Shown here: in pieces, positions 13,118 to 62,182 of the stretch | How positions within the stretch are numbered: the first letter of the stretch is position 1 | Layout: the number at the start of each line of letters is the position of its first letter | Assembly: GCF_003075095.1 (NCBI RefSeq) | Contig: NZ_QCZF01000002.1 | Location: 186,001 to 250,000, forward strand | Origin: Blastococcus litoris | GTDB lineage: Bacteria > Actinomycetota > Actinomycetes > Mycobacteriales > Geodermatophilaceae | Reading direction: 5' to 3' | DNA: 64,000 bases | Notes under the pieces: model-generated | Database searches by the model: none | Seen by the model: the letters and a program-made list of their open reading frames with translations, nothing else | Told to the model about the DNA's origin: nothing | Made by a program: the position numbers and the translations under genes

Positions 13118-13135
13118 CTCACCCCTCCGGGTGAG
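13118..13135. promoter_or_regulatory. Candidate operator dyad (TCACCC-N4-GGGTGA)
   Basis: Seven-base perfect arms CTCACCC and GGGTGAG around CTCC. It is 42 bases upstream of the membrane-protein start at 13076 and 286 bases upstream of the MalT-like regulator. It differs from most sites in having a 4-base spacer. Confidence 0.45.
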
Positions 13136-13201
13136 CGCTGCCGGGCAGCGAGCGGCGGGGCTGCTGGGCGGCCGTCGGGGGTCGGTGCGAGACTGGGCGG
13201 A

Positions 13202-13252
13202 CCTGTCGGGGGGCGACAGAGGGCCTCGGTCCGTGGTGCGTCCCCCGACAGG
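13202..13252. repeat. Long inverted repeat upstream of the MalT-like regulator
   Basis: CCTGTCGGGGG (13202-13212) and its exact complement CCCCCGACAGG (13242-13252), 29 bases apart. It could be a hairpin in a long leader or a two-site operator. Confidence 0.6.
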
Positions 13253-13420
13253 CTCCTCCGGTGCAGGCCGGGACGCTCGCACGCGGAGGGGCCTTCCCCT
13301 CGGCCCGCGCGGACGTGACCATCGGCCCTGAACACCAGCCGCGGTGTGCCAGAAGGTGGGGTGCGGGCGTCCGCCCGCACACGGGCCTCGGTCGTAGCAT
13401 CCGGCGCCAGGGGGAACGGA

Positions 13421-16084
13421 ATGGCCGCTCAGTCGCTGCCGGCACCGTCCGAGACCGTCACGGGCTCGACCGCGCTGGGTAGGAAGCTGGTCCCGCCGGG
13501 GACGGCGCAGGCCACGGTGGCGCGTGGTCGGCTGATGGACCTGCTGTCCGGTCACGTCCGCCGGTACTCCCTGATCCTGCTCAGCGGTCCGGCGGGGTCC
13601 GGGAAGACCATGCTGGCCGCCTCGTGGTGCCGGGCGGCGCGTCCCTCCCGGCCCGTCGCGTGGCTCACGCTGGACGCGTACGACGACGACCCGGCGACCT
13701 TCTGGAGTTCTGCGGTCGAGGCGCTCGCCACCTGCGGCGTCCGGTTCGAGGACCTCCCCGAGCTGGTTCCCGGCGAGGCCCCGGCCCCCTCGCTGATCCA
13801 GCGCCTGGCGTCGGCGCTGCTCGCCTGCCCCCGGCCCGTCGTCCTGGTCCTCGACGACGCCGACCACCTCAGCGACAGCACGGTGGCCGCCGGCCTGGAC
13901 CTGCTGCTCCGGCGGGCGGGCAGCCGTCTCCGGCTGGTCCTGTGCGGCCGTTCCGATCCGCCCCTCCCGCTGCACCGCTACCGCCTCGACGGCACCCTCG
14001 GCGAGATCCGCGGCGACCAGCTGGCCTTCACCCCCGACGAGACCCGCGAGCTGCTCGACGCGCTGGGCGTGCCGGTGAGCGCGGACGCCGCCGCCGCCCT
14101 GTGCGCGGAGGCGGAGGGCTGGGCCGTCGGCCTGCGCCTCGCCGCCGCACCCCTCAAGGGCGGGCTGCCGCCGGAGCGGCTCATCACCTCGCTCGCCCAC
14201 GACGACGGCAGCGTGGCCCAGTACCTGTTCAAGGAGGTGCTCGAGGGGCAGCCGGCCGGCGTCCGCCGCGTCCTGGCCCGCACGAGCGTGACCTCGGAGC
14301 TGTGGCCGGACCTCGTCGACCAGCTCACCGGGCGTCCGGGCACCCGCCGCGTCCTCGCGGGTCTCGCGCACGCCAACGCGTTCGTCGAGGAGTCGCCCGG
14401 GGCGCCCGGCGGCTTCCGCGTCCACCCCCTGTTCCGGGAGATGCTGCAGGCCGAGCTCGCCTACGAGCACCCCGGCGAGCTCGCCCGCCTGAACCGGAGC
14501 TGCGCCTCGTACTACGCCGCGGCCGGCCGGCCGCGGACGGCGGTCGCGCACGCGGTGGCAGCCGAGGACTGGGCGTCGGTGGCCACCCTCCTCGTGGACG
14601 ACCTCCTGGTGCCGCGCCTGCTCGTGCACGGCACGGACGCCGGCTTGCGTGGTGTGGAGGCGTTCCCGGCGGACGTCGGGGGAGCCGAGGCGGCGGTCGT
14701 GCGGACGGTCCTGGCGCTCGTCCGGGGCTGGCGGCCGGCGGCAGGCGACATGGGGGCCACGGTCGAGGCCGGGGTCTCCGGGGGCCGGCCGGCGCTGCGG
14801 CTGTCCGCGACGCTGGCCGCCCTGACCGCGGCAGGCGGGACGAGCCAGCCCCCGTCGCTCCTGGTTCCGCGCATCGACGCCGCTGTCGAGCTGGTCTCGG
14901 GGCTGCCCGAGCACGACCGGAGGGCGCGTGACGACGCCATGGCGGTGCTGACGTCGGTGCGGGCACAGGCGGCGCTGCGGACCGAGGAGCCGATGCGCAG
15001 GCTCGTCGCCGCGGTCCGGGCGTCGGCAGCAGCGGCGCACACGGCCGGAGCCCGTCGCTTCCGCCGCAGCTCGCTGGCCGAGCTGGCCGTGCTCGAGGCG
15101 GTTGCGGGTCGCTTGACGCGCGCGGCCCAGTACGCCGCCGAGGCCGACGCCATCGCTGCCGAGGACGGCGCCGACGAGGTCGGGCGAGACCCTTCCGCAG
15201 CGACGGCCATGGCCTGGGTGCACCTGCGCCGGTACGAGCTGGGCGAATCGCGTGACTGGCTGGCACGTGCCCAGGCGCGGCGCGGCGCCCCCGCGGGACC
15301 GGGCCCGGTGGGCATCGAGGCGCTGCAGGCGGTCCTGCAGTCGCAGCACCTGCGGCTGCGGCAGCAGCACGGACCGGCCCAGCAGGTGCTGCGGCCCCAC
15401 CTCGAGGGACCGCGGCTGCCGCGCTGGGTCGCCGAGCAGGTGGTCGCCGAGGTCGTCCACCTGGCGATCGCCCGCGGGCACGAGGCCGACGGGCTCGCGA
15501 TGCTCCGCGACCGGGGCCGGGACGAGCCGTGGAGCCGGCGTCTCGTGGCGTCCGTGGCACTGGTGCGCGGCACGGTGGCGGACGAGGTCGAGCCGGCGGA
15601 GGACTCGGCCGCGCCGCTGGCGGACGTGGTGGAGGCGACCGTCGTCCGGGCCTGCCAGCTCCTGCAGCGCGGCGACGTGACGGCGGCCGCCGACGAGCTC
15701 GCCGCGGCCCTGGAACGGGCCCGGCCCGAGCTCCTCCGCTGGCCCTTCGTCGACACACCGCCCCAGGCGCGCCGGCTGCTCCGGACGCATCCCCGGCTCC
15801 GGGAACCCGGTGCGTGGCTGAACCCGTCGAGCCGCGCGCGGCCCGGGGGCGTCCCGGCCCGCACCACCCCCGCGGAGCGCACCGAGATCGTGCAGGACCT
15901 CAGCGAGCGCGAGATGGAGGTCCTCCGCCACCTGGCGGAGATGCTCTCGACCGCGGAGATCGCGGCGACGATGTTCATCTCGGTCAACACCGTGCGCACG
16001 CACGTGCGCAGCGTCCTGCGCAAGCTCGGTGTCAGCCGGCGCAACCAGGCGGTGCGCAAGGCACGCGAGCGCGCGCTGCTCTGA
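13421..16084 (+). CDS. MalT-like LuxR-family ATP-dependent regulator (paralogue 1)
   Basis: An 887-residue STAND-type regulator. The MalT-like opening is RKLVPPGTAQATVARGRLMD. Walker A GPAGSGKT is at 56-63, Walker B VVLVLDDADHL at 140-150, and the sensor-like LCGRSDPPLPLHRYRLDG follows. A long helical TPR-type region covers about 330-800. The C-terminal LuxR HTH (about 825-885) has LSEREMEVLRHLAEMLSTAE and ISVNTVRTHVRSVLRKLGV. MalT-family proteins bind ATP and an inducer, oligomerise and activate transcription. The inducer here is unknown. A close paralogue lies at 49707, with nearly the same HTH and the same kind of neighbours. ATG 13421 is preceded by AGGGGGAAC. Confidence 0.92.
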   Translation: MAAQSLPAPSETVTGSTALGRKLVPPGTAQATVARGRLMDLLSGHVRRYSLILLSGPAGSGKTMLAASWCRAARPSRPVAWLTLDAYDDDPATFWSSAVEALATCGVRFEDLPELVPGEAPAPSLIQRLASALLACPRPVVLVLDDADHLSDSTVAAGLDLLLRRAGSRLRLVLCGRSDPPLPLHRYRLDGTLGEIRGDQLAFTPDETRELLDALGVPVSADAAAALCAEAEGWAVGLRLAAAPLKGGLPPERLITSLAHDDGSVAQYLFKEVLEGQPAGVRRVLARTSVTSELWPDLVDQLTGRPGTRRVLAGLAHANAFVEESPGAPGGFRVHPLFREMLQAELAYEHPGELARLNRSCASYYAAAGRPRTAVAHAVAAEDWASVATLLVDDLLVPRLLVHGTDAGLRGVEAFPADVGGAEAAVVRTVLALVRGWRPAAGDMGATVEAGVSGGRPALRLSATLAALTAAGGTSQPPSLLVPRIDAAVELVSGLPEHDRRARDDAMAVLTSVRAQAALRTEEPMRRLVAAVRASAAAAHTAGARRFRRSSLAELAVLEAVAGRLTRAAQYAAEADAIAAEDGADEVGRDPSAATAMAWVHLRRYELGESRDWLARAQARRGAPAGPGPVGIEALQAVLQSQHLRLRQQHGPAQQVLRPHLEGPRLPRWVAEQVVAEVVHLAIARGHEADGLAMLRDRGRDEPWSRRLVASVALVRGTVADEVEPAEDSAAPLADVVEATVVRACQLLQRGDVTAAADELAAALERARPELLRWPFVDTPPQARRLLRTHPRLREPGAWLNPSSRARPGGVPARTTPAERTEIVQDLSEREMEVLRHLAEMLSTAEIAATMFISVNTVRTHVRSVLRKLGVSRRNQAVRKARERALL

Positions 16085-16092: not shown

Positions 16093-16109
16093 TCACCCGG
16101 CGGGGAGGA
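16093..16109. promoter_or_regulatory. Candidate operator dyad (TCACCC-N5-GGAGGA)
   Basis: TCACCC-GGCGG-GGAGGA, 63 bases upstream of the DUF7144 gene at 16172, in the gap after the MalT-like regulator. Imperfect symmetry (four of six pairs). Confidence 0.4.
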
Positions 16110-16171: not shown

Positions 16172-16603
16172 ATGACCGGCACCTCGAACCGGGGCGACGC
16201 ACGCCGCACCGCCGGACCGGTGACCGCCTGGGCGGGCTGGGTCGTCTTCGGCGGCTTCGTCCTCGTCCTGCTGGGCACCTTCCAAATCGTCCAGGGGCTG
16301 GTCGCGCTCGCCGACGACGGCTTCTACGCGGTCACCTCGGACGGCCTGCTCGTCGACGTCGACTACGACGTCTGGGGATGGGTCCACCTGGCGATCGGCG
16401 TCGTCGCCGTCCTCACCGGCATCGGCCTGTTCGTCGGCAACACGGTGGCCCGGGTGGTCGCCGTCGGCATCGCGGCGCTCAGCGCCCTGGTCAACCTGGC
16501 CTTCCTGCCTGCCTACCCGGTGTGGTCGGCGCTCGTCGTCGTGCTCGACGTGCTGGTCATCTACGCGGTGGTCGTGCACGGGCGCGAGGTGACGCACGAC
16601 TGA
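16172..16603 (+). CDS. DUF7144 family membrane protein (paralogue 1)
   Basis: A 143-residue protein with four membrane segments: AGWVVFGGFVLVLLGTFQIV, VHLAIGVVAVLTGIGLFVG, ARVVAVGIAALSALVNLAFL and SALVVVLDVLVIYAVVVHG. A loop between the first two has the family's DDGFYAVTSDGLLVDVDYD. The family is widespread in actinobacteria, often beside stress-type regulators; its activity is unknown. GGAGGACAGG lies upstream at good spacing. A second copy at 53980 is strongly alike (DDGFYLVRSSGLVVDVDYN). It follows the MalT-like regulator by 87 bases and has its own candidate dyad. Confidence 0.9.
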   Translation: MTGTSNRGDARRTAGPVTAWAGWVVFGGFVLVLLGTFQIVQGLVALADDGFYAVTSDGLLVDVDYDVWGWVHLAIGVVAVLTGIGLFVGNTVARVVAVGIAALSALVNLAFLPAYPVWSALVVVLDVLVIYAVVVHGREVTHD

Positions 16604-16623: not shown

Positions 16624-16640
16624 TCGTCCGTCGCGGGTGA
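16624..16640. promoter_or_regulatory. Candidate operator dyad (TCGTCC-N5-GGGTGA)
   Basis: TCGTCC-GTCGC-GGGTGA, 65 bases upstream of the DUF6325 gene at 16706. The right arm is the common GGGTGA; the left arm departs from consensus at two positions. Confidence 0.35.
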
Positions 16641-16705: not shown

Positions 16706-17200
16706 ATGACCGCAGACCTCGAGCAGTCCACGAACCTCGACCAGATGGGACCCGTCGACTACATCGTCATCGCGTTCCCCACCGACCGGATGACCGGTGA
16801 GGCGTTCCCGATGCTCGTCGACCTCGTCGACCGGGGCATCATCCGGATCCTCGACCTGGTCTTCCTGCGCAAGGACGAGAACGGTGTCGTCTCGACGCTC
16901 ACCCAGCACGACCTCGAGCGCATGCAGGTGCTCGAGGCGGTGCTCTTCGACGGAGCCGCCTCCGGCCTGCTCGGCCAGGACGACGTCGTCGAGGCCGCCG
17001 AAGCGCTCGAGCCCGGCACGGCCGCCGGCGTCCTCGTCTACGAGAACGTGTGGGCGACCCCGTTCGCCTCGGCCCTCCGTCGTTCCGGCGGCCAGCTCGT
17101 GGCCTCCGGGCACATCCCGGTGCAGGCCCTGGTGGCCGCCCTCGACGCCCTCGAGTCGGTCGAGGCCGGGACGCCCGACAGCACGGTGTCGTCCTCCTGA
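16706..17200 (+). CDS. DUF6325 family protein
   Basis: A 164-residue soluble protein with the DUF6325/DUF1269-like pattern: MGPVDYIVIAFPTDRMTGEA, DLVDRGIIRILDLVFLRKDE, a central GLLGQDDVVEAAEALEPGTA, and AGVLVYENVWATPFASALRR. Such proteins look like small regulatory or membrane-associated stress proteins of unknown function. GGGGGAGAC lies before the ATG. It follows the DUF7144 gene on the same strand. Its last five codons form the first unit of a 16-bp tandem repeat that continues past the stop, so the very C-terminus (STVSSS) may vary between strains. Confidence 0.88.
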   Translation: MTADLEQSTNLDQMGPVDYIVIAFPTDRMTGEAFPMLVDLVDRGIIRILDLVFLRKDENGVVSTLTQHDLERMQVLEAVLFDGAASGLLGQDDVVEAAEALEPGTAAGVLVYENVWATPFASALRRSGGQLVASGHIPVQALVAALDALESVEAGTPDSTVSSS

Positions 17201-46657: not shown

Positions 46658-46769
46658 GGCGAGCCTCCCGCCGGTGGTCGTGCCGGTCGTCCGACGTACC
46701 GGATCCAGCGTCGGCCCACCGAGCCGGCGCCGGCATCCTCCGGGGAGGACGACGCCGCACCGCCCGTGC

Positions 46770-47944: not shown

Positions 47945-47961
47945 TCCCCTCGGGAGGGTGA
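47945..47961. promoter_or_regulatory. Weak candidate operator dyad (TCCCCT-N5-GGGTGA)
   Basis: TCCCCT-CGGGA-GGGTGA, 35 bases upstream of the AI-2E transporter start. Only four of six pairs match, so it is the weakest member of the set. Confidence 0.25.
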
Positions 47962-47971: not shown

Positions 47972-48466
47972 TCAGGCGTAGACGACGGAGGTGCGCAGCA
48001 GCGCGTCCTGCACGGATCGGTTCTCGCCGCTGACCAGCACCCAGAGGAGCCCGACGGGGAAGACGGTGCACAGCCCCGCCCGGATCGCGCTCCGCGCCCA
48101 GCGCAGCCGCGCCCCCCGGTCGTCGCAGACCTGGAGACCGAGCAACCGGTCCCCGTAGGTGGCGCCGGCGACGGCCCAGGTGACCGTGAAGTACAGCGCC
48201 TGGATGCCCAGCCCGATGAGGAGGAACGCCCCCGCCGGCACCACGGGGAAGGAGAAGCTGGTGGGCCCGATGAGGAAGCGGACCGCCGCCACGCCGAGGT
48301 ACCCCCCGGCCAGGAGGGCGAGGACGACGCCGACGTCCACGACGTTGGCCAGGGACCTGGTCACCAGCCCCGCGCGCGTGCCCACGACCGCGGACGGCAG
48401 CCGGGTGGACGGCGTCGGACCCGAGTCGTGCCACGGGTACGCGGGCTGCCGCTCGTCAGTGGTCAC
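47972..48466 (-). CDS. RDD family membrane protein
   Basis: A 164-residue RDD protein with three to four membrane segments. The Arg-Asp residues of the name are represented by VTRSLANVVDVGVVLALLAG. A central SFPVVPAGAFLLIGLGIQAL and the family motif ATYGDRLLGLQVCDDRGARL follow. RDD proteins are small integral proteins, some linked to Na+ transport; this one has no proven role. GTG 48466 lies 11 bases inside the end of the upstream repeat-protein gene, so translation is coupled. An N-terminal polar stretch of 35 residues precedes the first segment. Confidence 0.88.
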   Translation of the reverse strand: MTTDERQPAYPWHDSGPTPSTRLPSAVVGTRAGLVTRSLANVVDVGVVLALLAGGYLGVAAVRFLIGPTSFSFPVVPAGAFLLIGLGIQALYFTVTWAVAGATYGDRLLGLQVCDDRGARLRWARSAIRAGLCTVFPVGLLWVLVSGENRSVQDALLRTSVVYA

Positions 48467-49496: not shown

Positions 49497-49581
49497 CGTG
49501 GACCGACCTCCGCTGCGCGGCACATCCGTCCTCCCGGGTTCCGATCCTCGGACCAGCATCGGGGCGTGGTGCGGGCCGCCC

Positions 49582-49602
49582 ACTCATCCGGAGCGGATGA
49601 GT
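49582..49602. promoter_or_regulatory. Best candidate operator dyad (TCATCC-N5-GGATGA)
   Basis: ACTCATCC-GGAGC-GGATGAGT has perfect 8-base arms. It lies between divergent genes, 86 bases upstream of the repeat-protein start (49496) and 105 bases upstream of the second MalT-like regulator (49707), so it could serve autoregulation and the operon. The half-site GGATGAG resembles the MalT box core. Confidence 0.6.
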
Positions 49603-49706
49603 CGCCGTGCGGGGCGGGCGACCGATCCTCGTCCGCGGGCCGGTACCGGGCCGGCGGGAGGAAGAACTCGGAGCGGGCGGGTGCCGCTCCCGTCCTGGGG
49701 GAGCAC

Positions 49707-52427
49707 ATGAGGGTTCCGACGGCCGCGGACGCGGTCACGGCGCACGGCGCGGCCGTGGCCAGGCACGTCGAGGAGCGGCCGTACCGGCCCCAGGACCGCC
49801 GCGGAGCGGCGATCCTCACGTCGAAGCTGGTGCCACCGGAGCCCGCGCACGCGACCGTCGCGCGGCCGCGGCTGGGAACGCTCGTGGACCGGCACGTCCA
49901 GCACTCGCCCGTGACCCTGCTCAGCGGTCCCGCCGGTTCGGGCAAGACGGTGCTGGCGGCGCAGTGGCATGCCGGCCAGAGCGCGGCCCGCCCCGTCGGC
50001 TGGCTGTCCCTCGACCAGTACGACGACGACCCCGCCACCTTCTGGACCTATGTGCTGGAGACGGTGTCCCGCGCCGGCGTCCCGGTGACAGCGGTGCCGG
50101 AGCTGGTGCCCGGGGAGCCCCTGCCGGGCCGGCTGGTCGCCGGTCTCGCCGCCGACATCAGCGCCTCCTCCCGTCCGGTCGTCCTGGTCCTGGACGACGC
50201 CGACTCCCTGACCGACCGCTCCATCACGAGCGGGCTCGACCTGCTGGTCCGCAACGCCGGGCACCGGCTCCGCCTGGTTCTCTGCGGCCGGGCGGACCCT
50301 CTGCTCCCGCTGCACCGCTACCGGCTGGACGGCGTCCTGGCCGAGATCCGGACCGACGAGCTCGCGTTCACGCCGGAGGAGACCCGGGAGCTGTTCTCGG
50401 CGCTCGGCGCGCCGGTGACGGAGGAGGTCGCGCGGGGCCTCGCGGCCGAGACGCGTGGCTGGGCGGTCGGGCTGCGGCTGGCCGCCGCCCCCCTGAAGCA
50501 GGGCGTGGCGCCCGAGGACCTCTACACCTCGCTGGCCCGCGACGACGGGAGCGTCGCGCAGTACCTGTTCGAGGAGGTCTTCAAGGACCAGCCGGCGGGC
50601 ATCCGGCGCATCCTGGAGCGCATCAGCGTGACCGACGAGCTGTGGCCCGACCTGGTGGAGCGGCTCTGCGGCCGTCCGAACGTGCGGCGTGTCCTCACCG
50701 GGCTGGTGCACGCCAACGCGTTCGTCGAGGCGTCCCCCGGAGTCCCGGGTGGGTTCCGCATCCACCCCCTGTTCCAGGAGATGCTCCAGGCGCAGCTGAT
50801 CTACGACCACCCGGGCGAACTGGCCGGCCTGCACCGGACCTGCGCCCGCTGGTACGCCGACCGGCACGACACCACGACGGCGCTCGACCACGCGGTGGCC
50901 GCATCGGACTGGGCGCTCGTGGCGCGCCTCCTGGTCGACGACCTCTGGGTACCGCGCGTCCTGGCGCACGGGACCGATCACGTGCCGGGTGGGCTGCGCC
51001 CCGTGCCGGCGGACGTGCCGGGCGCCGCGGCCGCGGTCGTCCGGACGGTCGCGGCAGTGGCGGGGGGCTCCCGCCCGTCACCGGCCGACGTCGCCGTCGC
51101 GGCGGGCGTCCGGGACAGCGGTGAGCGGATCGAGCTGCGGCTCTCCGCGGGCCTGGCCGGCCTGGTCGCCGGGGCGGACGCGGGCCGCCCCCCGTCCGCG
51201 CTCCTCGCGGACGTGGACGCCGTGGCTGCCCTCGTCGCGCAGCTGCCCGAGGACCAGGCGCAGGTCCGGCGCGAGTGCGCGGCGGTGCTGGGACACCAGC
51301 GGGCCATGGCGGTGGCCGCCACCGACGTCGCCGTCGACCAGCTGCTGGTGGTGCTGCGTGCGGCCGTGACGGCGGCGCAGGGCGCCGGTGCCCGGCGTCT
51401 CCGGGCGCGTGCCGCGGGGCTCCTCGCCCTGGTCGAGGCCGTGACCGGCCACCTCACCCGCGCCGGCCAGCTCGCCGGGTCGGCCGAGGCGTTCGCGGCC
51501 GAGGAAGGCGCCGAGGGCGCGAGGCGCGAATCGGCCCCCGCCCTGGCACTGGCCTGGACCCACCTGCGCCGGTACGAGCTCGTCGAGGCTCGGGACTGGC
51601 TGGTCCGGGTCCGCGAGCGCACGCCGGGCGGTTCCTCCCGGCTCCCCGGGGTCGAGGCGCTGCACGCCGTGCTCCTCGCCCAGCAGCTGCGGCTGCGGCA
51701 CGAGCACGAGGCGGCGGAGCAGGCCCTGCGCCCCTTCGCGGAGGCGGACGGGCTGCCGCGGTGGCTGCGCGAGCAGGTCGTTCCCGAGGCGGTCCGGCTG
51801 CAGGTCGCCCGCGGCCGTACCGCCGAGGCGCTGCGGCTCCTGGACCGCGCCGGTCCGGGCGAGCGCTGGGCGGCCCGCCTGCGGGTGACGGTGGCGCTGG
51901 TCACCGGGGCCCCCGTCCCGGAGCTCCTGCCGCCCGCCGGTCCCGGGGCCGTGCCGGCCGATGCTGTGGAGACCTCCGTTCTCATGGCCTGCCAGCACCT
52001 CGAGGCGGGGCGGCTGACCACCGCCGTGGACGAGCTCGGTGCCGCGCTGGACCTGGCCCGCCCGGAGCTGCAGCGGTGGCCCTTCGTCGACACCCCGCCG
52101 CAGGCTCGCCGCCTGCTGCGGACCCAGCAACGGCTGCACGGGCCCGGAGCCTGGCTGAGCCCGTCGAGCGGAGCACGTCCGAAGCCGGGGACGGCGCCCG
52201 CCGCGCGGCCCGCGGTCACTGCGCCGCTGGTCCAGGACCTGAGCGACCGGGAGCTGGAGGTGCTGCGCTACCTGGCCGAGATGCTCTCCACCGCGGAGAT
52301 CGCCGCGGCGATGTTCATCTCGGTGAACACGGTCCGCACCCACATCCGCAGCATCCTGCGCAAGCTGTCGGTGGGCCGGCGCAACCAGGCGGTCCGCAAG
52401 GCCCGGGAGCGCGGGCTCCTCGGGTGA
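49707..52427 (+). CDS. MalT-like LuxR-family ATP-dependent regulator (paralogue 2)
   Basis: A 906-residue paralogue of the regulator at 13421. Walker A GPAGSGKT is at 74-81; Walker B is RPVVLVLDDADSL; LCGRADPLLPLHRYRLDGVL and a long TPR-like region follow. The C-terminal HTH (about 848-905) has LSDRELEVLRYLAEMLSTAE and ISVNTVRTHIRSILRKLSV, differing from paralogue 1 by only a handful of conservative changes, so both probably recognise the same DNA. The effector regions differ more. GGGGGAGC lies before the ATG. Both are followed by a DUF7144 gene and other small genes, indicating an ancestral module duplication. Confidence 0.92.
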   Translation: MRVPTAADAVTAHGAAVARHVEERPYRPQDRRGAAILTSKLVPPEPAHATVARPRLGTLVDRHVQHSPVTLLSGPAGSGKTVLAAQWHAGQSAARPVGWLSLDQYDDDPATFWTYVLETVSRAGVPVTAVPELVPGEPLPGRLVAGLAADISASSRPVVLVLDDADSLTDRSITSGLDLLVRNAGHRLRLVLCGRADPLLPLHRYRLDGVLAEIRTDELAFTPEETRELFSALGAPVTEEVARGLAAETRGWAVGLRLAAAPLKQGVAPEDLYTSLARDDGSVAQYLFEEVFKDQPAGIRRILERISVTDELWPDLVERLCGRPNVRRVLTGLVHANAFVEASPGVPGGFRIHPLFQEMLQAQLIYDHPGELAGLHRTCARWYADRHDTTTALDHAVAASDWALVARLLVDDLWVPRVLAHGTDHVPGGLRPVPADVPGAAAAVVRTVAAVAGGSRPSPADVAVAAGVRDSGERIELRLSAGLAGLVAGADAGRPPSALLADVDAVAALVAQLPEDQAQVRRECAAVLGHQRAMAVAATDVAVDQLLVVLRAAVTAAQGAGARRLRARAAGLLALVEAVTGHLTRAGQLAGSAEAFAAEEGAEGARRESAPALALAWTHLRRYELVEARDWLVRVRERTPGGSSRLPGVEALHAVLLAQQLRLRHEHEAAEQALRPFAEADGLPRWLREQVVPEAVRLQVARGRTAEALRLLDRAGPGERWAARLRVTVALVTGAPVPELLPPAGPGAVPADAVETSVLMACQHLEAGRLTTAVDELGAALDLARPELQRWPFVDTPPQARRLLRTQQRLHGPGAWLSPSSGARPKPGTAPAARPAVTAPLVQDLSDRELEVLRYLAEMLSTAEIAAAMFISVNTVRTHIRSILRKLSVGRRNQAVRKARERGLLG

Positions 52428-52433: not shown

Positions 52434-52450
52434 TCATGCGCGGCGGAGGA
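52434..52450. promoter_or_regulatory. Candidate operator dyad (TCATGC-N5-GGAGGA)
   Basis: TCATGC-GCGGC-GGAGGA, 71 bases upstream of the small gene at 52522. One left-arm and one right-arm base depart from the perfect site. Confidence 0.35.
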
Positions 52451-52521: not shown

Positions 52522-52866
52522 ATGGAGGCGGTCGGAACCCGGTTCGAGGTACGGGTGGGAACTCTCGTCAACCCGGCGATCCTCGCCGCGTTCCGGCTCC
52601 CGCTGAGCCGGGTCGCGGTGCCGCGCAACACGCTGCGCCGGCTCCGGATCACCGCCGACCACGACGTGCCGGCCGTGCTCTCCCGGTTGATCGAGAGCGA
52701 CGTCGAGGTCCTCGAGATCCGTCGCTGCACCATCCCCTCGGCCCGGGCCGACACCACCGAGCCGGCCCCGCGCACACCGCCCCCGGTCCCGGCGGGCACC
52801 GACGGCGCCGCCGGCGTCGTCCTGCCGTTCCGGGGCCGGTCCGGCGACCGCCGGCGGCCCCGCTAA
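52522..52866 (+). CDS. Small conserved hypothetical protein (paralogous to 55846)
   Basis: A 114-residue protein. The first 70 residues form a small alpha/beta unit: FEVRVGTLVNPAILAAFRLP, NTLRRLRITADHDVPAVLSR and LIESDVEVLEIRRC. This matches the layout of the 76-residue protein at 55846 (strand E-V/L-R-V, middle LRI/LRT strand, helix, D-L/V-x-L/V-x-E-V/I-R strand). Such proteins are common in actinobacterial genomes without a known job. The last 45 residues are Pro/Arg-rich and disordered. GGAGG lies 10 bases before the ATG. The stop overlaps that of the convergent BrkB gene (CTAA). Confidence 0.75.
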   Translation: MEAVGTRFEVRVGTLVNPAILAAFRLPLSRVAVPRNTLRRLRITADHDVPAVLSRLIESDVEVLEIRRCTIPSARADTTEPAPRTPPPVPAGTDGAAGVVLPFRGRSGDRRRPR

Positions 52867-53738
52867 CCCCCGGAGCTGCCGGTCCTGCGGGTGTGCAGGA
52901 GGTGACCCACGACCGCTCCGCCCAGCAGCACCGTGCTGAACCAGGTGAGCCAGGACATCAGCACGAAGACGACGCCGATCGGGCCGTAGCGGTCGGCGTT
53001 CCACACGATCGCGCGGGACAGGTACACGCTCGTGACGACGCCGAACGCGGCGATGGCGGCCGCGGTCACGAGCGCCCCGGGCAGGAGCGAGGACCGGGGC
53101 ACCCGCCCCGCGAGCAGGAAGCCCTGCATCCACCAGACCCACGTGAGGAGGAGCGGGGAGCACAGCCCGGCGGTGAGCAGCGCGCCGGCCACCCCGCCCG
53201 CGATGCTGCCGACCCAGGCGACCACGACGACGACGGCGAGCATCGAACCCAGCCAGACCAGCGGTCGCCACAGCTGGCGCCAGCCGAGCGGGGGGAGTCC
53301 CCAGACGGCCTGGTAGAAGCGCTGCAGCTCGGCCGGCCAGGCGTAGGCGGCCAGCACGGTGAAGACCGCCCCGACCGCGGACGTCGCCGTGCGCACGGTC
53401 CGGTCGGTGCCGAAGAGGGCCCGGACGGAGGCGCGCGCCTCTTCGGACAACGCCATGTGGTGGGCCATCCGGTCGGCCAGCCCGTGGTCGCTGCCCAGGG
53501 GGAGGACGGCGGCGAGGCTGATCAGCGCCGGCACGAACAGCACCATGCCGAGCGCGCTGAAGACCAGGGCGTGGTGCGAGATGCCCAGGTCGCGCATCCG
53601 CGTCTGCACCGAGCCGAGCGTCCCGGCGCGTGCGCGGTCCGCGGCGGTCGCCGCCAGCTCGCGCGAGCGCGCCAGCCGCGCGGCGACCCGCTGGGTGGCC
53701 CCCGTGCGCGCACCCCTGGTCGGTCCGGCAGGTGCCAT
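52863..53738 (-). CDS. YihY/BrkB family membrane protein
   Basis: A 291-residue protein with six membrane segments: ALVFSALGMVLFVPALISLA, AVFTVLAAYAWPAELQRFYQ, LVWLGSMLAVVVVVAWVGSI, LLTWVWWMQGFLLAG, ALVTAAAIAAFGVVTSVYLS and GVVFVLMSWLTWFSTVLLGG. This is the YihY/UPF0761 family (formerly ribonuclease BN), of unsettled function. ATG 53738 sits just after GAGGAGGC. It is divergent from the second DUF7144 gene across a 241-bp gap that contains two candidate dyads. Confidence 0.87.
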   Translation of the reverse strand: MAPAGPTRGARTGATQRVAARLARSRELAATAADRARAGTLGSVQTRMRDLGISHHALVFSALGMVLFVPALISLAAVLPLGSDHGLADRMAHHMALSEEARASVRALFGTDRTVRTATSAVGAVFTVLAAYAWPAELQRFYQAVWGLPPLGWRQLWRPLVWLGSMLAVVVVVAWVGSIAGGVAGALLTAGLCSPLLLTWVWWMQGFLLAGRVPRSSLLPGALVTAAAIAAFGVVTSVYLSRAIVWNADRYGPIGVVFVLMSWLTWFSTVLLGGAVVGHLLHTRRTGSSGG

Positions 53739-53801: not shown

Positions 53802-53818
53802 TCCCCCCTCGCGGGGGA
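53802..53818. promoter_or_regulatory. Candidate operator dyad (TCCCCC-N5-GGGGGA)
   Basis: TCCCCC-CTCGC-GGGGGA, perfect 6-base arms and 5-base spacer, 64 bases upstream of the YihY/BrkB start. Same geometry as the TCATCC sites but C-rich in the middle. Confidence 0.35.
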
Positions 53819-53844: not shown

Positions 53845-53861
53845 TCATGCGCTGCGGACGA
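53845..53861. promoter_or_regulatory. Candidate operator dyad (TCATGC-N5-GGACGA)
   Basis: TCATGC-GCTGC-GGACGA, 118 bases upstream of the DUF7144 gene at 53980. The left arm is the same variant as at 52434. Confidence 0.35.
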
Positions 53862-53979: not shown

Positions 53980-54429
53980 ATGACGGACACCTCGCACCGA
54001 AGGATCACCGAGACCGACACCCGGTACGACGACGAGCTCTCGGGGTGGACCGGGTGGGTCGTCTTCGGCGGCGTCATGCTGATCATGCTCGGCGCGTTCC
54101 AGGTCATCGAGGGCCTCGTGGCCCTGTTCGACGACGGCTTCTACCTCGTCCGGTCGAGCGGGCTGGTGGTCGACGTGGACTACAACACCTGGGGCTGGAT
54201 CCACATGGGCATCGGCGTCGTCGGCATCCTCGTCGGCCTCGGCCTGCTGACCGGCAACATGGCCGCCCGCATCTTCGGGGTGGGCATCGCGTTCCTGAGC
54301 GCGCTGGTCAACCTGGCGTTCATCTCGGCCTACCCGATCTGGTCGACCATCCTGATCGTCCTCGACGTCCTCGTGATCTTCGCGATCGTCGTCCACGGGC
54401 GCGAGATGAAGGGCACCTACGTCCGCTGA
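53980..54429 (+). CDS. DUF7144 family membrane protein (paralogue 2)
   Basis: A 149-residue protein closely similar to that at 16172: TGWVVFGGVMLIMLGAFQVI, the loop DDGFYLVRSSGLVVDVDYN, IHMGIGVVGILVGLGLLTGN, IFGVGIAFLSALVNLAFISA and SAYPIWSTILIVLDVLVIFA. Four membrane segments, with a 20-residue polar N-terminus. AGGAGGACAGG lies at good distance before the ATG. It ends in a very strong bidirectional terminator. The neighbourhood (MalT-like regulator upstream, YihY/BrkB divergent) matches only in part that of copy 1. Confidence 0.92.
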   Translation: MTDTSHRRITETDTRYDDELSGWTGWVVFGGVMLIMLGAFQVIEGLVALFDDGFYLVRSSGLVVDVDYNTWGWIHMGIGVVGILVGLGLLTGNMAARIFGVGIAFLSALVNLAFISAYPIWSTILIVLDVLVIFAIVVHGREMKGTYVR

Positions 54430-55185: not shown

Positions 55186-55566
55186 TCAGACGAGGACGCG
55201 GCGCTTGAGCTGCTCGAACTCCTGCTCGGTGATCGCGCCGCCGTCGAGCAGCTCCTTGGCCCGCGCGATCTCGTCGACGGCGGTGTAGGCGCGGGGCGCG
55301 TCGGGCCGCGGCCGGCCCGCGAGGGCTGCCGAGCGGTCGAGGTCACCCGCCCGTGCCTGCGTGACCAGGTAGGCGAGCGACCCCAGCACCGGCAGGACGA
55401 GGACCAGGACGACCCAGCCGGCCTTCGCCCAGCCGGAAAGGTCGCGTCGTCGGAACACGTGCGCCAGGACCGTGACGACCAGCCAGAAGACGGTCATCAG
55501 GCAGAAGAAGATGACGAACGTCCACAGCACGTCGGCGAGCGGGTAGTCGTCGGCAGCGGTGATCAT
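55186..55566 (-). CDS. PLDc_N and SHOCT domain membrane protein
   Basis: A 126-residue protein. Two membrane segments (LWTFVIFFCLMTVFWLVVTV; AGWVVLVLVLPVLGSLAYLV) form the PLDc_N (cardiolipin-synthase N-terminal) unit. A linker leads to a C-terminal SHOCT motif, IARAKELLDGGAITEQEFEQ then LKRRVLV. SHOCT is a short oligomerisation-type motif at protein ends. First gene of the pair with the Rv1733c-like protein. A TCATCC...GGATGA dyad lies 51 bases upstream. Confidence 0.9.
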   Translation of the reverse strand: MITAADDYPLADVLWTFVIFFCLMTVFWLVVTVLAHVFRRRDLSGWAKAGWVVLVLVLPVLGSLAYLVTQARAGDLDRSAALAGRPRPDAPRAYTAVDEIARAKELLDGGAITEQEFEQLKRRVLV

Positions 55567-55616: not shown

Positions 55617-55636
55617 TCATCCCCCTGCTCGGATGA
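55617..55636. promoter_or_regulatory. Candidate operator dyad (TCATCC-N8-GGATGA)
   Basis: Perfect TCATCC and GGATGA arms with an 8-base instead of a 5-base spacer, 51 bases upstream of the PLDc_N/SHOCT gene. Confidence 0.4.
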
Positions 55637-55684: not shown

Positions 55685-55701
55685 TCATCCGGGAGGGAGG
55701 A
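55685..55701. promoter_or_regulatory. Candidate operator dyad (TCATCC-N5-GGAGGA)
   Basis: TCATCC-GGGAG-GGAGGA, 144 bases upstream of the small gene at 55846; five of six pairs match. The gap 55567-55845 holds this site and the one at 55617 and nothing else recognised. Confidence 0.4.
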
Positions 55702-55845: not shown

Positions 55846-56076
55846 ATGGCACGTCTCGTGTACGAGCTCCGGGTGCGTGGGCCGGTCCCGCCCGAACTCC
55901 TCGAGGAGATCGGTGCGGAGGACCTGGGCGAAGAGCCCCCGTTGACCATCCTCCGGACCGAACCCACCGACCAGCCCGGGCTGCACGGGGTGCTGCAGCG
56001 GTTGCGCAGCCTCGGGCTGGACCTGATGGAGGTCCGCACCGCGGGCGCGGAACCGACCGACCGGGAAGGCGTCTGA
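55846..56076 (+). CDS. Small conserved hypothetical protein (paralogous to 52522)
   Basis: A 76-residue protein: MARLVYELRVRGPVPPELLE, PPLTILRTEPTDQPGLHGVL and QRLRSLGLDLMEVRTAG. It is a compact beta-alpha-beta-beta-alpha-beta pattern with no named family that I can cite; very similar short proteins are frequent in actinobacteria. AGGGGGAACG precedes the ATG. The related protein at 52522 lacks the DQPGLHG loop. Its location behind two dyads suggests it is induced with the neighbouring genes. Confidence 0.8.
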   Translation: MARLVYELRVRGPVPPELLEEIGAEDLGEEPPLTILRTEPTDQPGLHGVLQRLRSLGLDLMEVRTAGAEPTDREGV

Positions 56077-57583: not shown

Positions 57584-57946
57584 TCAGGAGGTGCGCTGCT
57601 CCGGCAGCCCCATGTCGTCCAGGGCAGCGGCGCCCAGGACGCCGCGGACGATGGCCCCGGCGGCGGAGGTCACCCGTGCGCTGCCGACGACAGGGGCGAT
57701 GGCGACCAGGACGGCCTGCGCCTTCTCCACCGTCAGGCCGGTGTCCGCCGCGGCGCCGAGGGTGATCAGGTACGAGACGGGCGCGGCGTCCATCGCCACG
57801 AGCGCGGCCAGCCGGACGGCCAGGTAGGTGTCGGCGTCCAGACCCGAGCGCTCGGCGGCGTCGAGGTTCATGTGCAGGAGGGTCTCGAGGACCGGGGCGT
57901 CGCCCTGCGCGATGCGTCCGAGCGCGTCGTCCTGGGTCTGGGTCAT
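57584..57946 (-). CDS. Carboxymuconolactone decarboxylase-like (CMD) protein
   Basis: A 120-residue all-helical protein of the CMD/AhpD-like family: NLDAAERSGLDADTYLAVRL, AALVAMDAAPVSYLITLGAA and TVEKAQAVLVAIAPVVGSAR. The redox CxxC of AhpD is absent, so peroxidase activity is unlikely. The family includes oligomeric proteins of unknown job in actinobacterial stress loci. ATG 57946 is chosen over a longer Arg-rich frame; AGGAGAC lies just upstream of it. It probably forms an operon with the MFS gene. Confidence 0.85.
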   Translation of the reverse strand: MTQTQDDALGRIAQGDAPVLETLLHMNLDAAERSGLDADTYLAVRLAALVAMDAAPVSYLITLGAAADTGLTVEKAQAVLVAIAPVVGSARVTSAAGAIVRGVLGAAALDDMGLPEQRTS

Positions 57947-58008: not shown

Positions 58009-58025
58009 TCACCCGTTCCGGACGA
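58009..58025. promoter_or_regulatory. Candidate operator dyad (TCACCC-N5-GGACGA)
   Basis: TCACCC-GTTCC-GGACGA, 62 bases upstream of the CMD gene start, in the short gap behind the GH15 gene. Four of six pairs match. Confidence 0.35.
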
Positions 58026-58031: not shown

Positions 58032-59879
58032 TCAGCGCGGCGGGCGGCCGTCCAGGGCCGCGTCCAGGGTGATCGCGGCGTCGATCAGGGACAGGTGGGT
58101 GAAGGCCTGCGGGAAGTTGCCGATCTGCTCGCCGGTGAGGGCGATCTCCTCGGAGTAGAGGCCGACGTGGTTGCCGTAGGTGAGCATCTTCTCGAAGGCG
58201 GTCCGGGCTTCGTCGAGGCGGCCGGCGCGGGTGAGCGAGTCGACGTAGGCGAACGTGCAGAGGGAGAAGGTGCCCTCCGAGCCGCGCAGCCCGTCGGGGG
58301 AGGCGTCCGGGTCGTAGCGGTACACCAGGCTGTCGGTGACCAGTTCGCCGTCCATGGCCTCCAGGGTCGACAGCCAGAGCGGGTCGCGGGCGTCGATCAT
58401 CCCGACGGTCGGCATGCGCAGCAGCGCGGAGTCCAGCACGTCGGTGTCGTAGTGCTGGACGAACGCCTGCCGCGACGCGTGGAAGCCGCGCTCCATGACC
58501 TGCCGGTGGATCCGGTCGCGCTCGGCCGTCCACCGCTCCAGCGGCGCGGGCAGGCCGTGCTCGCGGGCGAGCCGGATGCCCCGGTCGAAGGCGACCCAGC
58601 ACATCACGCGCCCGTAGGTGAAGTCCTGCCGCCCGCCGCGGGTCTCCCAGATGCCCTCCTCGGGCTGGTCCCAGTTCTCGGCGAGCCAGTCCAGGACCCG
58701 GCTGATCGCGCCCCAGCCCTGCTGGGGGAGGGGCAACCCGGCGCGGACCCCGGCGAAGATGCTGTCCAGCGCCTCCCCGTAGATGTCGAGCTGCAGCTGC
58801 TCGGCGGCGCCGTTGCCGATGTGCACGGGGGTCGAGCCCCGGTACCCCCGCCAGTGGTCGAGCACCTCCTCCTTGAGGTCGGAGGAGCCGTCGATCCGGT
58901 ACATGATGTTGAGCGGGCCGCTGTCGCTGCCGATCCGCTCCCGGATCCGGTCGCCCAGCCACGATCCGAGCTGCGCGGCCTCGCCGGTCATGCCGAGCTT
59001 GAGCAGGGCGTGCACCGAGAAGGACGCGTCGCGCACCCACGTGTACCGGTAGTCCCAGTTCCGCTCCCCGCCGATCTGCTCGGGGAGCGCCGCGGTCGGC
59101 GCGGCCACGATCCCGCCGGTCGGGGCGTAGGTCATGAGCTTGAGCGTGATGGCCGAGCGCTGGACGTCCTCCCGCCACCTGCCCGTGTAGCTGGAGCCGG
59201 CCACCCACGACCGCCAGAAGCCGACCGTCTCCGCGAACAGCGCGCGGACCTCGGCCGGCCGGATCTCGCGCGGCGGCCCGTCGGCGGCGGTCTCGAGCAC
59301 GACCCCGCGCGTCTGACCGGCGACCAGGGGCAGCCGCGCGCGACCGTCACCGTCGCCGACGCCCTCCACCAGGCGCTCGTCGTCGGGTTCCCGGACGACG
59401 TGCAGCGTGAGGGTGTGACCGTTCGCCCGGAACACCGCGCCCTGCTCGGTCATCTCCAGGCGGTGCGCGTGCCGCCCGTAGTCGAAGCGCGGGGCCACGT
59501 CGATGTCGAACGTCATCCGGCCGCGCACGCACTCGACGATGCGGACCAGCCGGTGGTTGTCGGTGGCCGTCGGGCCGGCCGGCGGCATGAAGTCGACGAC
59601 CTGGCCGAGGCCCTCCTCGGTGAAGAACCGGGTCACCAGGACGGCGGTGTCGGGCAGGTACATCTGCTTGGACGTGTAGGCGACGTCGGCGGGGCGGATC
59701 CGGAAGTGCCCGCCGCGCTCGTCGTCGAGCAGCGCGCCGAACACGCTGGGGGAGTCGAACCGCGGGGCGCAGAACCAGTCGACCGACCCGTCGGTGGTGA
59801 CGAGCGCGGCGGTCTGGAGGTCACCGATGATCCCGTGCTCGGCGATCGCGGTCTCGGGCCGGAGAGGTGTCTGGGTCAC
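58032..59879 (-). CDS. GH15 glucoamylase/trehalase-like enzyme
   Basis: A 615-residue glycoside hydrolase family 15 protein without signal peptide. The N-terminal beta-sandwich (HGIIGDLQTAALVTTDGSVD) is followed by an (alpha/alpha)6 barrel: NWDYRYTWVRDASFSVHALL, DHWRGYRGSTPVHIGNGAAE, EEGIWETRGGRQDFTYGRVM (putative acid Glu) and EGTFSLCTFAYVDSLTRAGR (putative base Glu). Actinobacterial members include trehalases and glucoamylases; the substrate here is not certain. A trehalase would oppose TreXYZ encoded in this window. GTG 59879 is used. A dyad sits 34 bases upstream, shared with the divergent SHOCT gene. Confidence 0.92.
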   Translation of the reverse strand: MTQTPLRPETAIAEHGIIGDLQTAALVTTDGSVDWFCAPRFDSPSVFGALLDDERGGHFRIRPADVAYTSKQMYLPDTAVLVTRFFTEEGLGQVVDFMPPAGPTATDNHRLVRIVECVRGRMTFDIDVAPRFDYGRHAHRLEMTEQGAVFRANGHTLTLHVVREPDDERLVEGVGDGDGRARLPLVAGQTRGVVLETAADGPPREIRPAEVRALFAETVGFWRSWVAGSSYTGRWREDVQRSAITLKLMTYAPTGGIVAAPTAALPEQIGGERNWDYRYTWVRDASFSVHALLKLGMTGEAAQLGSWLGDRIRERIGSDSGPLNIMYRIDGSSDLKEEVLDHWRGYRGSTPVHIGNGAAEQLQLDIYGEALDSIFAGVRAGLPLPQQGWGAISRVLDWLAENWDQPEEGIWETRGGRQDFTYGRVMCWVAFDRGIRLAREHGLPAPLERWTAERDRIHRQVMERGFHASRQAFVQHYDTDVLDSALLRMPTVGMIDARDPLWLSTLEAMDGELVTDSLVYRYDPDASPDGLRGSEGTFSLCTFAYVDSLTRAGRLDEARTAFEKMLTYGNHVGLYSEEIALTGEQIGNFPQAFTHLSLIDAAITLDAALDGRPPR

Positions 59880-59913
59880 CGTCCCACCGTGCTGCGGGTG
59901 CCCCCGGCGGACC

Positions 59914-59930
59914 TCATCCACGGGGGGTGA
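59914..59930. promoter_or_regulatory. Candidate operator dyad (TCATCC-N5-GGGTGA)
   Basis: TCATCC-ACGGG-GGGTGA, five of six pairs. It lies between divergent genes, 34 bases from the GH15 start and 81 bases from the start at 60012. Confidence 0.5.
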
Positions 59931-60011
59931 TGAGTGGCCCCCGGCCGGCGGCGAGTCTGAGGAAGCTGTCGGCCGGGCGCCGCCCGCCTGCCGCGGGAGA
60001 GGACAGTGCCC

Positions 60012-61562
60012 ATGCGCCGCTTCGTCGCCGGAGTGCTGATCGTGGTCAGCGCCGTCACGCTCGTGCTCGCCAGCGCCTCGTTGTGGCTGCGCCGCAACAT
60101 CATCAACACCGACGTCTTCGTCTCCAACGTGCAGACCGTGGTCGACCTCCCCGAGGTCGAGGCCCGGATCACCGACCGGGTGACGACGACGGTCATGACC
60201 AACCCGCAGGTGCAGGACGCCGTCGACGAGGCGGTCGCGGTGCTCCCGGAGCGGCTCCGGCGGTTCGAGCCGACGGTGGAGAGCGGCATCCAGAACGTGG
60301 TGGCCGCAGGGGTGCAGCGGCTGCTCAGCGACGACCCGTTCCGGCCGCTGACCACGGCCGCGATGACCTCGGTCCACGACCAGCTGGTCGCCGGGGAGCC
60401 CCTGGAGTTCACCCTCGGCCAGGCGAAGGACCGCGTGCCCGACTCCCTGCGGGACGGGATCGCCGGGCAGGTCCTGGACCTCCTCCCGGACGACCTCGGC
60501 GTGACGCTGCTGTCGCCGGCCGACTCGCCGCAGGTCTACACCGCCATCGACGTGCTGGAGTCGGCGTGGTGGTGGCTCGGGCTCATCGCCGTGGCCACGC
60601 TCGTCGGTGCGCTCGGCGTCTCGCGGCGCCGCGGCGGCACGGTGCGGGCCTGGGCGGTGACCGTCACCGTGCTCGCCGTCGTCGTGCTGGCCGCCCTCCG
60701 GATCGGACGGGGGCTGCTCCTGCCGCAGGTCCGGGCGGAGAACCGCGACGCGGTGGGGGCGATCTACGACGTCCTCGCCGGCAGCCTGCGGTCCTGGACC
60801 CTCTGGGTGTTCGCCCTGGCCCTCCTGCTCGTCGTCCTGACCGTCGTGTGGGGGCGCACGGGGCTGGTCGCCGGCGTCCGGCGCGGCCTGGCGACGGGGC
60901 GGGCGCAGCTGCTCGTCCGGCGCGAGGAGGCCCGCGCGGCCCGGGCCGCGACGGCCATGGGGGGTGCGGCCGACGGGACGGGGACCGGAGCCGACGAACC
61001 GTGGACGCGCCGCGTGGCCGCGTGGTGGCGCGGGTTCGCCGCCGGCCTGGACCTGCCGGCACGGACGGCCACCGTCGGTGCCGCCGTCCGGGACCACTTC
61101 GTCCCGGCCCGGTGGGCCGGCATCGGGCTCGGCGCGCTGCTCCTGCTGTTCTGGCCGGCGCCCACCCTCTCGGTGCTCATCTGGATCGTCGCGCTGGTGG
61201 TCCTCTACGTGGGCGCCCTCGACTGGCTGCGCGACCGCGCCGCGCCGGCCGCGCCGGAGGCCCCACCCGCGTCGCGCCCGGCCGTGGTGCCCGCGGGCGG
61301 CCGGCCGGTCGCCGGGAACGGATCGCCCGTGACCCCGGCGGTCGTCCCGACGGCGCGCTCGTCCGGTGCCGACGGCGCTCCGCCGGCCGACGGGGCGGAC
61401 CGCGCGGCGCCGGAGCTGGTCCCGGCCGCGCTCACGCCCCAGGCGATCTCCACGCTCAGCAGCCGGCTGGACCTCCTGGTGCGGCTCGGGGCGGCGCGGG
61501 ACTCCGGTGTCCTCAGCGAGGACGAGTTCCGCCACGAGAAGGACCGCCTCCTCAGCGTGTGA
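60012..61562 (+). CDS. Membrane protein with C-terminal SHOCT motif
   Basis: A 516-residue protein. A first membrane segment (FVAGVLIVVSAVTLVLASAS) is followed by an extracytoplasmic region of about 150 residues (VFVSNVQTVVDLPEVEARIT ...). Two segments lie near 185-235, another near 265-285, and two near 360-395. A Pro/Ala-rich linker precedes the SHOCT end ISTLSSRLDLLVRLGAARDS, then GVLSEDEFRHEKDRLL. The family is widespread in actinobacteria and uncharacterised. ATG 60012 has GAGAGGA 8 bases before it; a GTG at 60006 is in frame but too close to that site. Confidence 0.88.
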   Translation: MRRFVAGVLIVVSAVTLVLASASLWLRRNIINTDVFVSNVQTVVDLPEVEARITDRVTTTVMTNPQVQDAVDEAVAVLPERLRRFEPTVESGIQNVVAAGVQRLLSDDPFRPLTTAAMTSVHDQLVAGEPLEFTLGQAKDRVPDSLRDGIAGQVLDLLPDDLGVTLLSPADSPQVYTAIDVLESAWWWLGLIAVATLVGALGVSRRRGGTVRAWAVTVTVLAVVVLAALRIGRGLLLPQVRAENRDAVGAIYDVLAGSLRSWTLWVFALALLLVVLTVVWGRTGLVAGVRRGLATGRAQLLVRREEARAARAATAMGGAADGTGTGADEPWTRRVAAWWRGFAAGLDLPARTATVGAAVRDHFVPARWAGIGLGALLLLFWPAPTLSVLIWIVALVVLYVGALDWLRDRAAPAAPEAPPASRPAVVPAGGRPVAGNGSPVTPAVVPTARSSGADGAPPADGADRAAPELVPAALTPQAISTLSSRLDLLVRLGAARDSGVLSEDEFRHEKDRLLSV

Positions 61563-61568
61563 CCGCCC

Positions 61569-62138
61569 TCAGGCGTCGTCGGGCGGCGCATCGGCCGCCG
61601 TGCCGCCCACGAGCCGACGGCGGTGGGTCACGGCCGAGAGGAAGACGCGCAGGACGAGGCCGATCAGGACCAGGTCACCGATCATCTGGACGGTGACCAG
61701 GAGCCGGGCGGGGGAGCTCACCGGGCTCACGTCGCCGAAGCCCACCGTCGCGAACACGGTCACCACGAAGTACACGCTGTCGACCCGGTCCAGGGGCTCG
61801 GTGAAGGCGGCCGGGTCCGTCGCCGAGAGCACCACGTAGGTGCCGGCGAACAGCAGCAGGAAGTACGTCAGCGAGGCGGCGACCGCCTCGATCGCCCGCA
61901 GCGCCGGGTGCGGTGACTGCAGGATCGCGCGGACCTGCCAGGCGACCAGCAGCCCGAGCCCCAGCACGCCCGCCGCGAGGGCGGCGACGGTGCCCGCCGT
62001 GAACTGCCGGTCCAGGGGGAGCAGCACGTACACCAGCAGGACGCCGGTGGTGGTGAGCGCTGAACGCCACAGGGCACGGCTGACCGCGTGCCGGCCGGGT
62101 GCCGCGCCGTCCAGCAGGGGGCCGTCCACGCCGGGCAT
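61569..62138 (-). CDS. Two-pore-helix type potassium channel protein (Ion_trans_2)
   Basis: A 189-residue protein with four membrane segments. The last two flank a pore loop with the selectivity filter TVGFGD (in VVTVFATVGFGDVSPVSSPA), diagnostic of K+ channels. No RCK or TrkA-N domain follows, so gating domains would have to come from elsewhere. The C-terminal 20 residues are polar. The stop lies 6 bases from that of the convergent SHOCT gene. A perfect dyad lies 28 bases upstream of the start. Confidence 0.92.
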   Translation of the reverse strand: MPGVDGPLLDGAAPGRHAVSRALWRSALTTTGVLLVYVLLPLDRQFTAGTVAALAAGVLGLGLLVAWQVRAILQSPHPALRAIEAVAASLTYFLLLFAGTYVVLSATDPAAFTEPLDRVDSVYFVVTVFATVGFGDVSPVSSPARLLVTVQMIGDLVLIGLVLRVFLSAVTHRRRLVGGTAADAPPDDA

Positions 62139-62165
62139 GCTCCTGGGCCGGAGCCCGTCGGAGGA

Positions 62166-62182
62166 TCACCCGTCCCGGGTGA
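62166..62182. promoter_or_regulatory. Candidate operator dyad (TCACCC-N5-GGGTGA)
   Basis: TCACCC-GTCCC-GGGTGA, perfect 6-base arms, 27 bases upstream of the K+ channel gene and just past the stop of the DUF2252 gene. Confidence 0.55.

Follow-up and report, generated by a model that had tools for sequence, protein, structure and literature searches.

A clustered inverted repeat with a fixed -10 spacing, linked to MalT-like LAL regulator genes in Blastococcus litoris

LAL regulators are common in actinobacteria, and to our knowledge few of them have a known operator. Here we describe an inverted repeat (dyad), TCAYCC-N5-GGRTGA, in a 64,000-nucleotide stretch of the Blastococcus litoris genome (contig NZ_QCZF01000002.1, positions C2:186001-250000; this whole stretch is called the window) that also carries two MalT-like LAL genes, LAL1 and LAL2. 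The closest described system is that of Actinoplanes sp. SE50/110, for which PMC7567727 reports the same motif, TCATCC-5nt-GGATGA; 17 start sites in a region of 51 genes carry it, with its 3' end 34.4 +/- 1.0 nt from the mapped starts. According to the same paper, deletion of the MalT-like gene ACSP50_3915 lowered 42 of the 51 genes (the abstract gives an activating effect on 40) and affected no maltose gene, and the motif was also found by those authors in other Micromonosporaceae. In the literature searched, this was the only paper found to report the motif; it also quotes the E. coli MalT box as GGGGA(T/G)GAGG.

The dyad was counted in the whole B. litoris genome of 4,631,862 bases (4.63 Mb). 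Its exact form occurred six times, with all six copies lying within 32 kb (C2:235584-267249), and the reversed control did not occur. When up to one mismatch was allowed, 39 sites were found genome-wide compared to 6 for the reversed control, and 13 of the 39 were inside C2:202093-267249, a 65-kb region making up 1.4% of the genome. Five further dyads of this quality precede called genes past the window end (64080, 65706, 75714, 78696, and 81233 in window numbering), and the cluster of sites extends approximately 17 kb past that end. Within the window alone, a loose two-mismatch pattern gave 59 matches against a shuffle mean of 45.3, with 4 of 100 shuffles equally high; this is slightly above chance, and the worry about chance hits voiced in a preliminary description of this DNA was therefore fair. 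Because of the genome-wide counts and the composite test described below, however, we judge the dyad to be real. As far as our searches show, the cluster is new for Geodermatophilaceae; it is of a kind already reported in Actinoplanes (PMC7567727).

A second signal was revealed by aligning 51 sites that face a gene whose called start is 50 to 80 bp away; these came from 19 relative loci as well as the region of the window. This signal is an A at +24 or +25 past the dyad, followed four bases on by a T. The pattern A-N3-T with its A at offset 23 to 25 was present in 47 of these 51 rows and also in 32 of 44 other rows with the start 20 to 140 bp away; the means at other offsets were approximately 1.5 and 1.6, respectively, with a maximum of 4. 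We read it as a -10 hexamer, nANNNT, and refer to it as the predicted -10 box. Its spacing would put the dyad between about -51 and -35, with the centre near -43, which is an activator position, and predicts a start approximately 35 nt past the dyad. This distance was derived before the comparison with the data given in PMC7567727, and the values agree. The -10 is degenerate, and the alignment holds no clear -35 box except for a G two bases past the dyad (86%), which may be part of the half-site or the remnant of a -35 box.

The -10 distinguished the clustered sites from those elsewhere in the genome. Of the 13 clustered sites with up to one mismatch, 12 have it in one or both directions, compared to 4 of the 26 elsewhere; of the outside sites for which genes were called, 16 of 24 fall within called genes. 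We then define a composite site as a dyad with the -10 at the right spacing. A scan of 144 kb around the window found 12 composite sites with up to one mismatch, where 100 shuffles averaged 0.09 and never exceeded 1, and 17 with up to two mismatches, where the shuffles averaged 2.05 and never exceeded 6. These 17 include the sites at 46736 and 84813, to which no gene was assigned. The site at 65706, which precedes a permease gene past the window end, is without a -10, and the part of the window from 17 to 46 kb holds no composite site even when two mismatches are allowed.

The features of the window are given below. Gene families were assigned by Pfam, and the start codons of several called genes are guesses of a simple codon model.

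13119..13134, minus strand: palindrome with a 4-base spacer, probably another, dispersed motif (genome scan)
13421..16084, plus strand: LAL1, MalT-like regulator, 59% identical to LAL2 (Pfam, sequence search)
16093..16109, plus strand: dyad, 1 mismatch, predicted -10 at 24, upstream of a DUF7144 gene
16172..16603, plus strand: DUF7144 protein (Pfam)
16624..16640, plus strand: dyad, 1 mismatch, predicted -10 at 24, upstream of the DUF6325 gene
16706..17200, plus strand: DUF6325 protein (Pfam)
46770..47909, minus strand: AI-2E family transporter (Pfam)
47945..47961, minus strand: dyad, 2 mismatches, predicted -10 at 24, upstream of the AI-2E gene
48486..49460, minus strand: divergent gene coding for repeats some 9 residues long, limits approximate (tblastn with the divergent genes of three relatives)
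49584..49600, both strands: perfect dyad TCATCC-N5-GGATGA in the gap between LAL2 and the divergent repeat-protein gene, followed in each direction by A-N3-T at 25
49698..52427, plus strand: LAL2, MalT-like LuxR-family STAND regulator and proposed activator, provisional start codon (Pfam)
52434..52450, plus strand: dyad, 2 mismatches, predicted -10 at 24, upstream of a 114-aa open reading frame
52522-52866: 114-aa open reading frame, no family match in Pfam
52863..53738, minus strand: YihY/BrkB family protein (Pfam)
53802..53818, minus strand: doubtful dyad with 2 mismatches, lacking a correctly spaced -10, upstream of the BrkB gene
53845..53861, plus strand: dyad, 2 mismatches, predicted -10 at 24, upstream of the second DUF7144 gene
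53980..54429, plus strand: second DUF7144 protein (Pfam)
55186..55566, minus strand: SHOCT/PLDc_N protein (Pfam)
55620..55636, minus strand: dyad, 1 mismatch, predicted -10 at 24, upstream of the SHOCT/PLDc_N gene
55685..55701, plus strand: dyad, 1 mismatch, predicted -10 at 24, facing a 72-aa gene
55858..56076, plus strand: small protein of 72 aa with homologues in relatives, no Pfam family
57584..57946, minus strand: CMD (carboxymuconolactone-decarboxylase-like) protein, score at the cut-off (Pfam)
58009..58025, minus strand: dyad, 1 mismatch, predicted -10 at 24, upstream of the CMD gene
58032..59879, minus strand: GH15/trehalase-like glycoside hydrolase (Pfam)
59914..59930, both strands: perfect dyad, predicted -10 at 24 on both sides, between the GH15 gene and a 518-aa gene
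60006..61562, plus strand: 518-aa protein, SHOCT match under the cut-off (Pfam)
61569..62138, minus strand: ion-channel protein (Ion_trans_2, K+ channel type) (Pfam)
62166..62182, minus strand: perfect dyad, predicted -10 at 25, upstream of the K+ channel gene

All 13 dyads listed in the preliminary description were recovered, three of them beginning one to three bases later than given there (13119, 49584, and 55620), and 12 of the 13 carry A-N3-T with the A at offset 23 to 25, the exception being 53802. One or two of them (53802 and 13119) are probably not members. The remark in that description that the motif was not seen in the gaps of other regions agrees with the lack of composite sites at 17 to 46 kb. 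The label "envelope/stress" that the same description gave to the genes was derived from their names.

The site at 13119 was set aside as a member of the main set because its 4-base-spacer form is scattered genome-wide and the other copies are without a -10. There are 11 dispersed copies of TCACCC-N4-GGGTGA in the genome, always with TCACCC and GGGTGA as half-sites. The other 10 (loci L206-L215) are all intergenic by the gene calls, and none of these 10 has a -10 at the LAL spacing; 13119 itself has such an A-N3-T. This palindrome is probably the site of another regulator or a structured repeat.

Past the window end, the sites are followed by genes for DUF308, PLDc_N, and Abhydrolase_9 proteins, by a short gene ahead of a sulfate permease, and by an amino acid permease gene with arginine deiminase, ornithine carbamoyltransferase, amino acid kinase, and cation ATPase genes after it (all by Pfam). 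The DUF308 protein has an HdeD-like NCBIfam match that is under the cut-off. Judged by gene names, the target set suggests ion, acid, and energy stress. On another contig, at 341 to 342 kb of C5, two one-mismatch dyads with the right -10 (positions 1501 and 2764 of locus L115, C5:339736-344000) precede short called genes, and an open reading frame for a Na+/H+ exchanger lies 263 bases past the second. These two dyads are possible outlying members of the regulon.

The motif was also abundant in other genomes. In 61 genomes, including that of B. litoris, there were 182 exact sites compared to 7 reversed controls, and 39 of the 61 had at least one site. In a sample of 148 genomes of the class, again including B. 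litoris and overlapping the first set by a few genomes, there were 299 exact sites compared to 25 reversed controls, with at least one site in 86. We also analyzed 45 relative loci, chosen for holding sites or LAL genes, which contained 180 oriented composite sites. A called gene followed 154 of them and in 100 cases had a homologue in the window's cluster, a homologue here being the best BLAST match among the window-cluster proteins, with orthology not implied. Homologues of the DUF6325 protein (in 11 of the 45 loci), the SHOCT/PLDc_N protein, and the 72-aa protein each followed a composite site 11 times, those of DUF7144 9 times, CMD 6 times (5 loci), DUF308 5 times, GH15 4 times, and AI-2E once; a BrkB gene after a site in locus L089 was missed by this count. 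Within a set of 46 loci, records of Nocardia, Kibdelosporangium, Nocardioides, and Conexibacter carry sites with a -10 close to LAL matches, and the proteobacterial and nitrospiral members had zero or one site. Some loci of relatives (L124-L126, L127-L128, L135, and L095) have several dyads near tandem pairs of distant LAL genes (32 to 35% identical to LAL2), many of the TCACCC type and most with the same -10 spacing; these perhaps form a second regulon of the same kind.

The MalT-like genes LAL1 and LAL2 lie inside the dyad region. Three long LAL matches were found in the genome, LAL2 (49698-52427), LAL1 (13421-16084; 59% identical), and LAL3 on contig C7 (approximately 50%), and the recognition helices of all three are nearly identical and similar to that of E. 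coli MalT. LAL1 matched Pfam AAA_16 with 46.2 bits (cut-off, 32.6), and LAL2, scanned as the longer open reading frame 48159-52427, scored 30.8 bits for AAA_16, under that cut-off, and 28.5 bits for AAA_22, over its cut-off of 27; both were over the cut-off for GerE. An N-terminal AAA-type ATPase and a C-terminal GerE domain are thus present in both, which is the LAL/STAND LuxR architecture. For NF003420, the NCBIfam MalT equivalog with a curated cut-off of 537 bits, LAL2 scored 226.9 and LAL1 222.7 bits, and we therefore call them MalT-like rather than MalT. Among solved structures, the best match to LAL2 is E. coli MalT (8bob) with E 3.9e-34. The open reading frame 48159-52427 was rejected as the LAL2 gene, its 5' part being wrong and overrunning the divergent gene at 48486-49460. 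That minus-strand gene encodes repeats of approximately 9 residues of the type RVDLDAVVD and has homologues divergent to a LAL gene in L084, L091, and L094; its window copy had no NCBIfam match.

LAL genes and sites occurred together in other genomes. All seven relatives with a LAL match of more than 300 bits hold many sites (8, 9, 10, 11, 12, 15, and 21), compared to a median of 1 (range, 0 to 14) in the remaining 53 relatives (Mann-Whitney p 1.3e-5, relatedness and genome size being ignored). In the class sample, the 17 genomes with a LAL match through the helix-turn-helix (HTH) had a median of 5 sites and the 130 others had 1 (p 5e-7, with the same simplification). We then considered the approximately 450 nt upstream of 58 LAL genes that had sufficient upstream DNA, all picked by similarity to LAL2. 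The dyad was found upstream of 25 of the 58, and the reversed control was found upstream of none. It preceded LAL genes of seven relatives, 52 to 64% identical to LAL2 (L052-L057 and L142), and was absent upstream of the L143 gene (50% identical). By eye, none of nine LALs with a THTKN, THTKS, or THTRH helix (L062, L064-L067, L198, L200, L202, and L203) had an upstream dyad, and a THTKN-like helix may mark a different DNA specificity. The preliminary description had proposed enrichment over shuffled sequence and conservation in related genomes as ways to judge the motif; strong enrichment was found in both the genome counts and the composite scan, and the dyad recurs before homologous genes in relatives. 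Its suggestion that MalT-like proteins are the binders gains support from linkage, from co-occurrence, and from the Actinoplanes case as published (PMC7567727).

Several observations weigh against LALs as the regulators acting at the dyad. The remaining 33 of the 58 LAL genes have no dyad in the upstream DNA searched, and 12 of 40 LAL genes have a dyad just downstream. The upstream stretches searched for LAL1 and LAL3 lack a dyad with the 5-base spacer. No dyad with up to one mismatch was found in 20 kb around LAL3 (L099, C7:92001-112000). Three genomes (G052, G057, and G044) have LAL matches through the HTH and zero exact sites; conversely, G024 holds 6 sites but lacks a LAL match at E 1e-40, and in G056 10 sites go with only a partial match. 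In the site-rich family f34, the LALs are only 30 to 33% identical to LAL2 in long matches.

A different LuxR-type protein encoded nearby could bind the dyad, such as a GerE-type protein (C2:272005) or a response regulator (6588-7319), and we regard this as improbable. The former (L016) lies approximately 5 kb past the last site; its HTH and that of LAL2 share 54% identity across 56 residues, and 3 of the 37 relative loci searched contain a homologue. The response regulator was set aside since it has no homologue in these 37 loci at E 1e-20, compared to LAL homologues in 21 of the 37, a comparison biased by the many loci chosen for holding LAL genes. The Actinoplanes genetics (PMC7567727) also point to a LAL. 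Slightly less probable still is that the dyad serves as the operator of a repressor, which would silence genes by occupying the -35. By the -10 spacing, the dyad does reach the -35 position as such an operator could, which counts against an activator; however, there is no clear -35 box save the G two bases past the dyad, the -10 is degenerate, and the malT deletion in Actinoplanes lowers expression (PMC7567727). Chance matching in a GC-rich genome, which the weak enrichment of the loose pattern in the window alone might suggest, has next to no probability, being excluded for the clustered sites with up to one mismatch by the genome, relative, class, and composite counts and so refuted for the main set, although 53802 and individual sites with two mismatches may be such matches.

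We conclude that the dyad is very probably the operator of MalT-like LAL activators that switch on clustered ion, arginine, and membrane genes. The sequences themselves establish the dyad and its clustering, the constant distance to the -10, the return of the motif in relatives, and the linkage to LAL genes. How the LALs would bind and activate, what they would sense, and what role they would serve we infer as follows. A signal would switch the STAND ATPase of LAL1 or LAL2, which carries the LuxR-type DNA-binding domain, and the activated LAL would bind TCAYCC-N5-GGRTGA, whose centre would lie near -43 and which would reach into the -35 region. Bound there, it would recruit RNA polymerase to promoters with a -10 box and without a clear -35. 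The local regulon turned on in this way would comprise the arginine deiminase operon and the cation ATPase, the K+ channel, and permeases, and also the HdeD-like and small membrane proteins, GH15, and LAL2 itself. A broader proposal, which we put forward tentatively and hold somewhat short of an even chance, is that up to three paralogous LALs with near-identical helices and diverged sensors act through one shared set of dyad promoters. Several signals would then feed a single ion, acid, and energy-stress regulon rather than maltose use, with one operator code across the actinomycete STAND family.

As far as our searches show, the Geodermatophilaceae regulon, the presence of sites with a -10 close to LAL matches in Nocardia, Kibdelosporangium, Nocardioides, and Conexibacter, a composite promoter rule that applies across families, and the three paralogues with nearly one helix are new. 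A dyad readable from sequence, together with a fixed -10, would make it possible to predict many LAL regulons together, and membership in the dyad set gives hypotheses for the DUF6325, DUF7144, DUF308, and SHOCT proteins. The present results also add to the doubt, raised in PMC7567727, about whether "MalT" controls the use of maltose in these bacteria.

The locus resembles the Actinoplanes MalT regulon (ACSP50_3900-3950, described in PMC7567727 as a maltose-regulated large genomic region) in its motif, predicted start distance, clustered targets, and two MalT-like genes. The kinds of target common to both include an amino acid permease, arginine deiminase, ornithine carbamoyltransferase, carbamate kinase, and a class II glutamine amidotransferase. 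It differs in belonging to the Geodermatophilaceae, in the approximately 34 kb between LAL1 and LAL2, in having a third paralogue on another contig, and in its other genes. Compared to the E. coli MalT boxes, the element described here is an inverted dyad with a 5-base spacer, no maltose gene was recognised among the annotated targets, and identity to E. coli MalT is 26% over residues 39-417. The proteins are alike in having a STAND ATPase joined to a LuxR HTH and a similar recognition helix. The half-site GGATGA is the core of the MalT box, and the E. coli malP-malT gap contains four matches that resemble the box, each with one or two mismatches.

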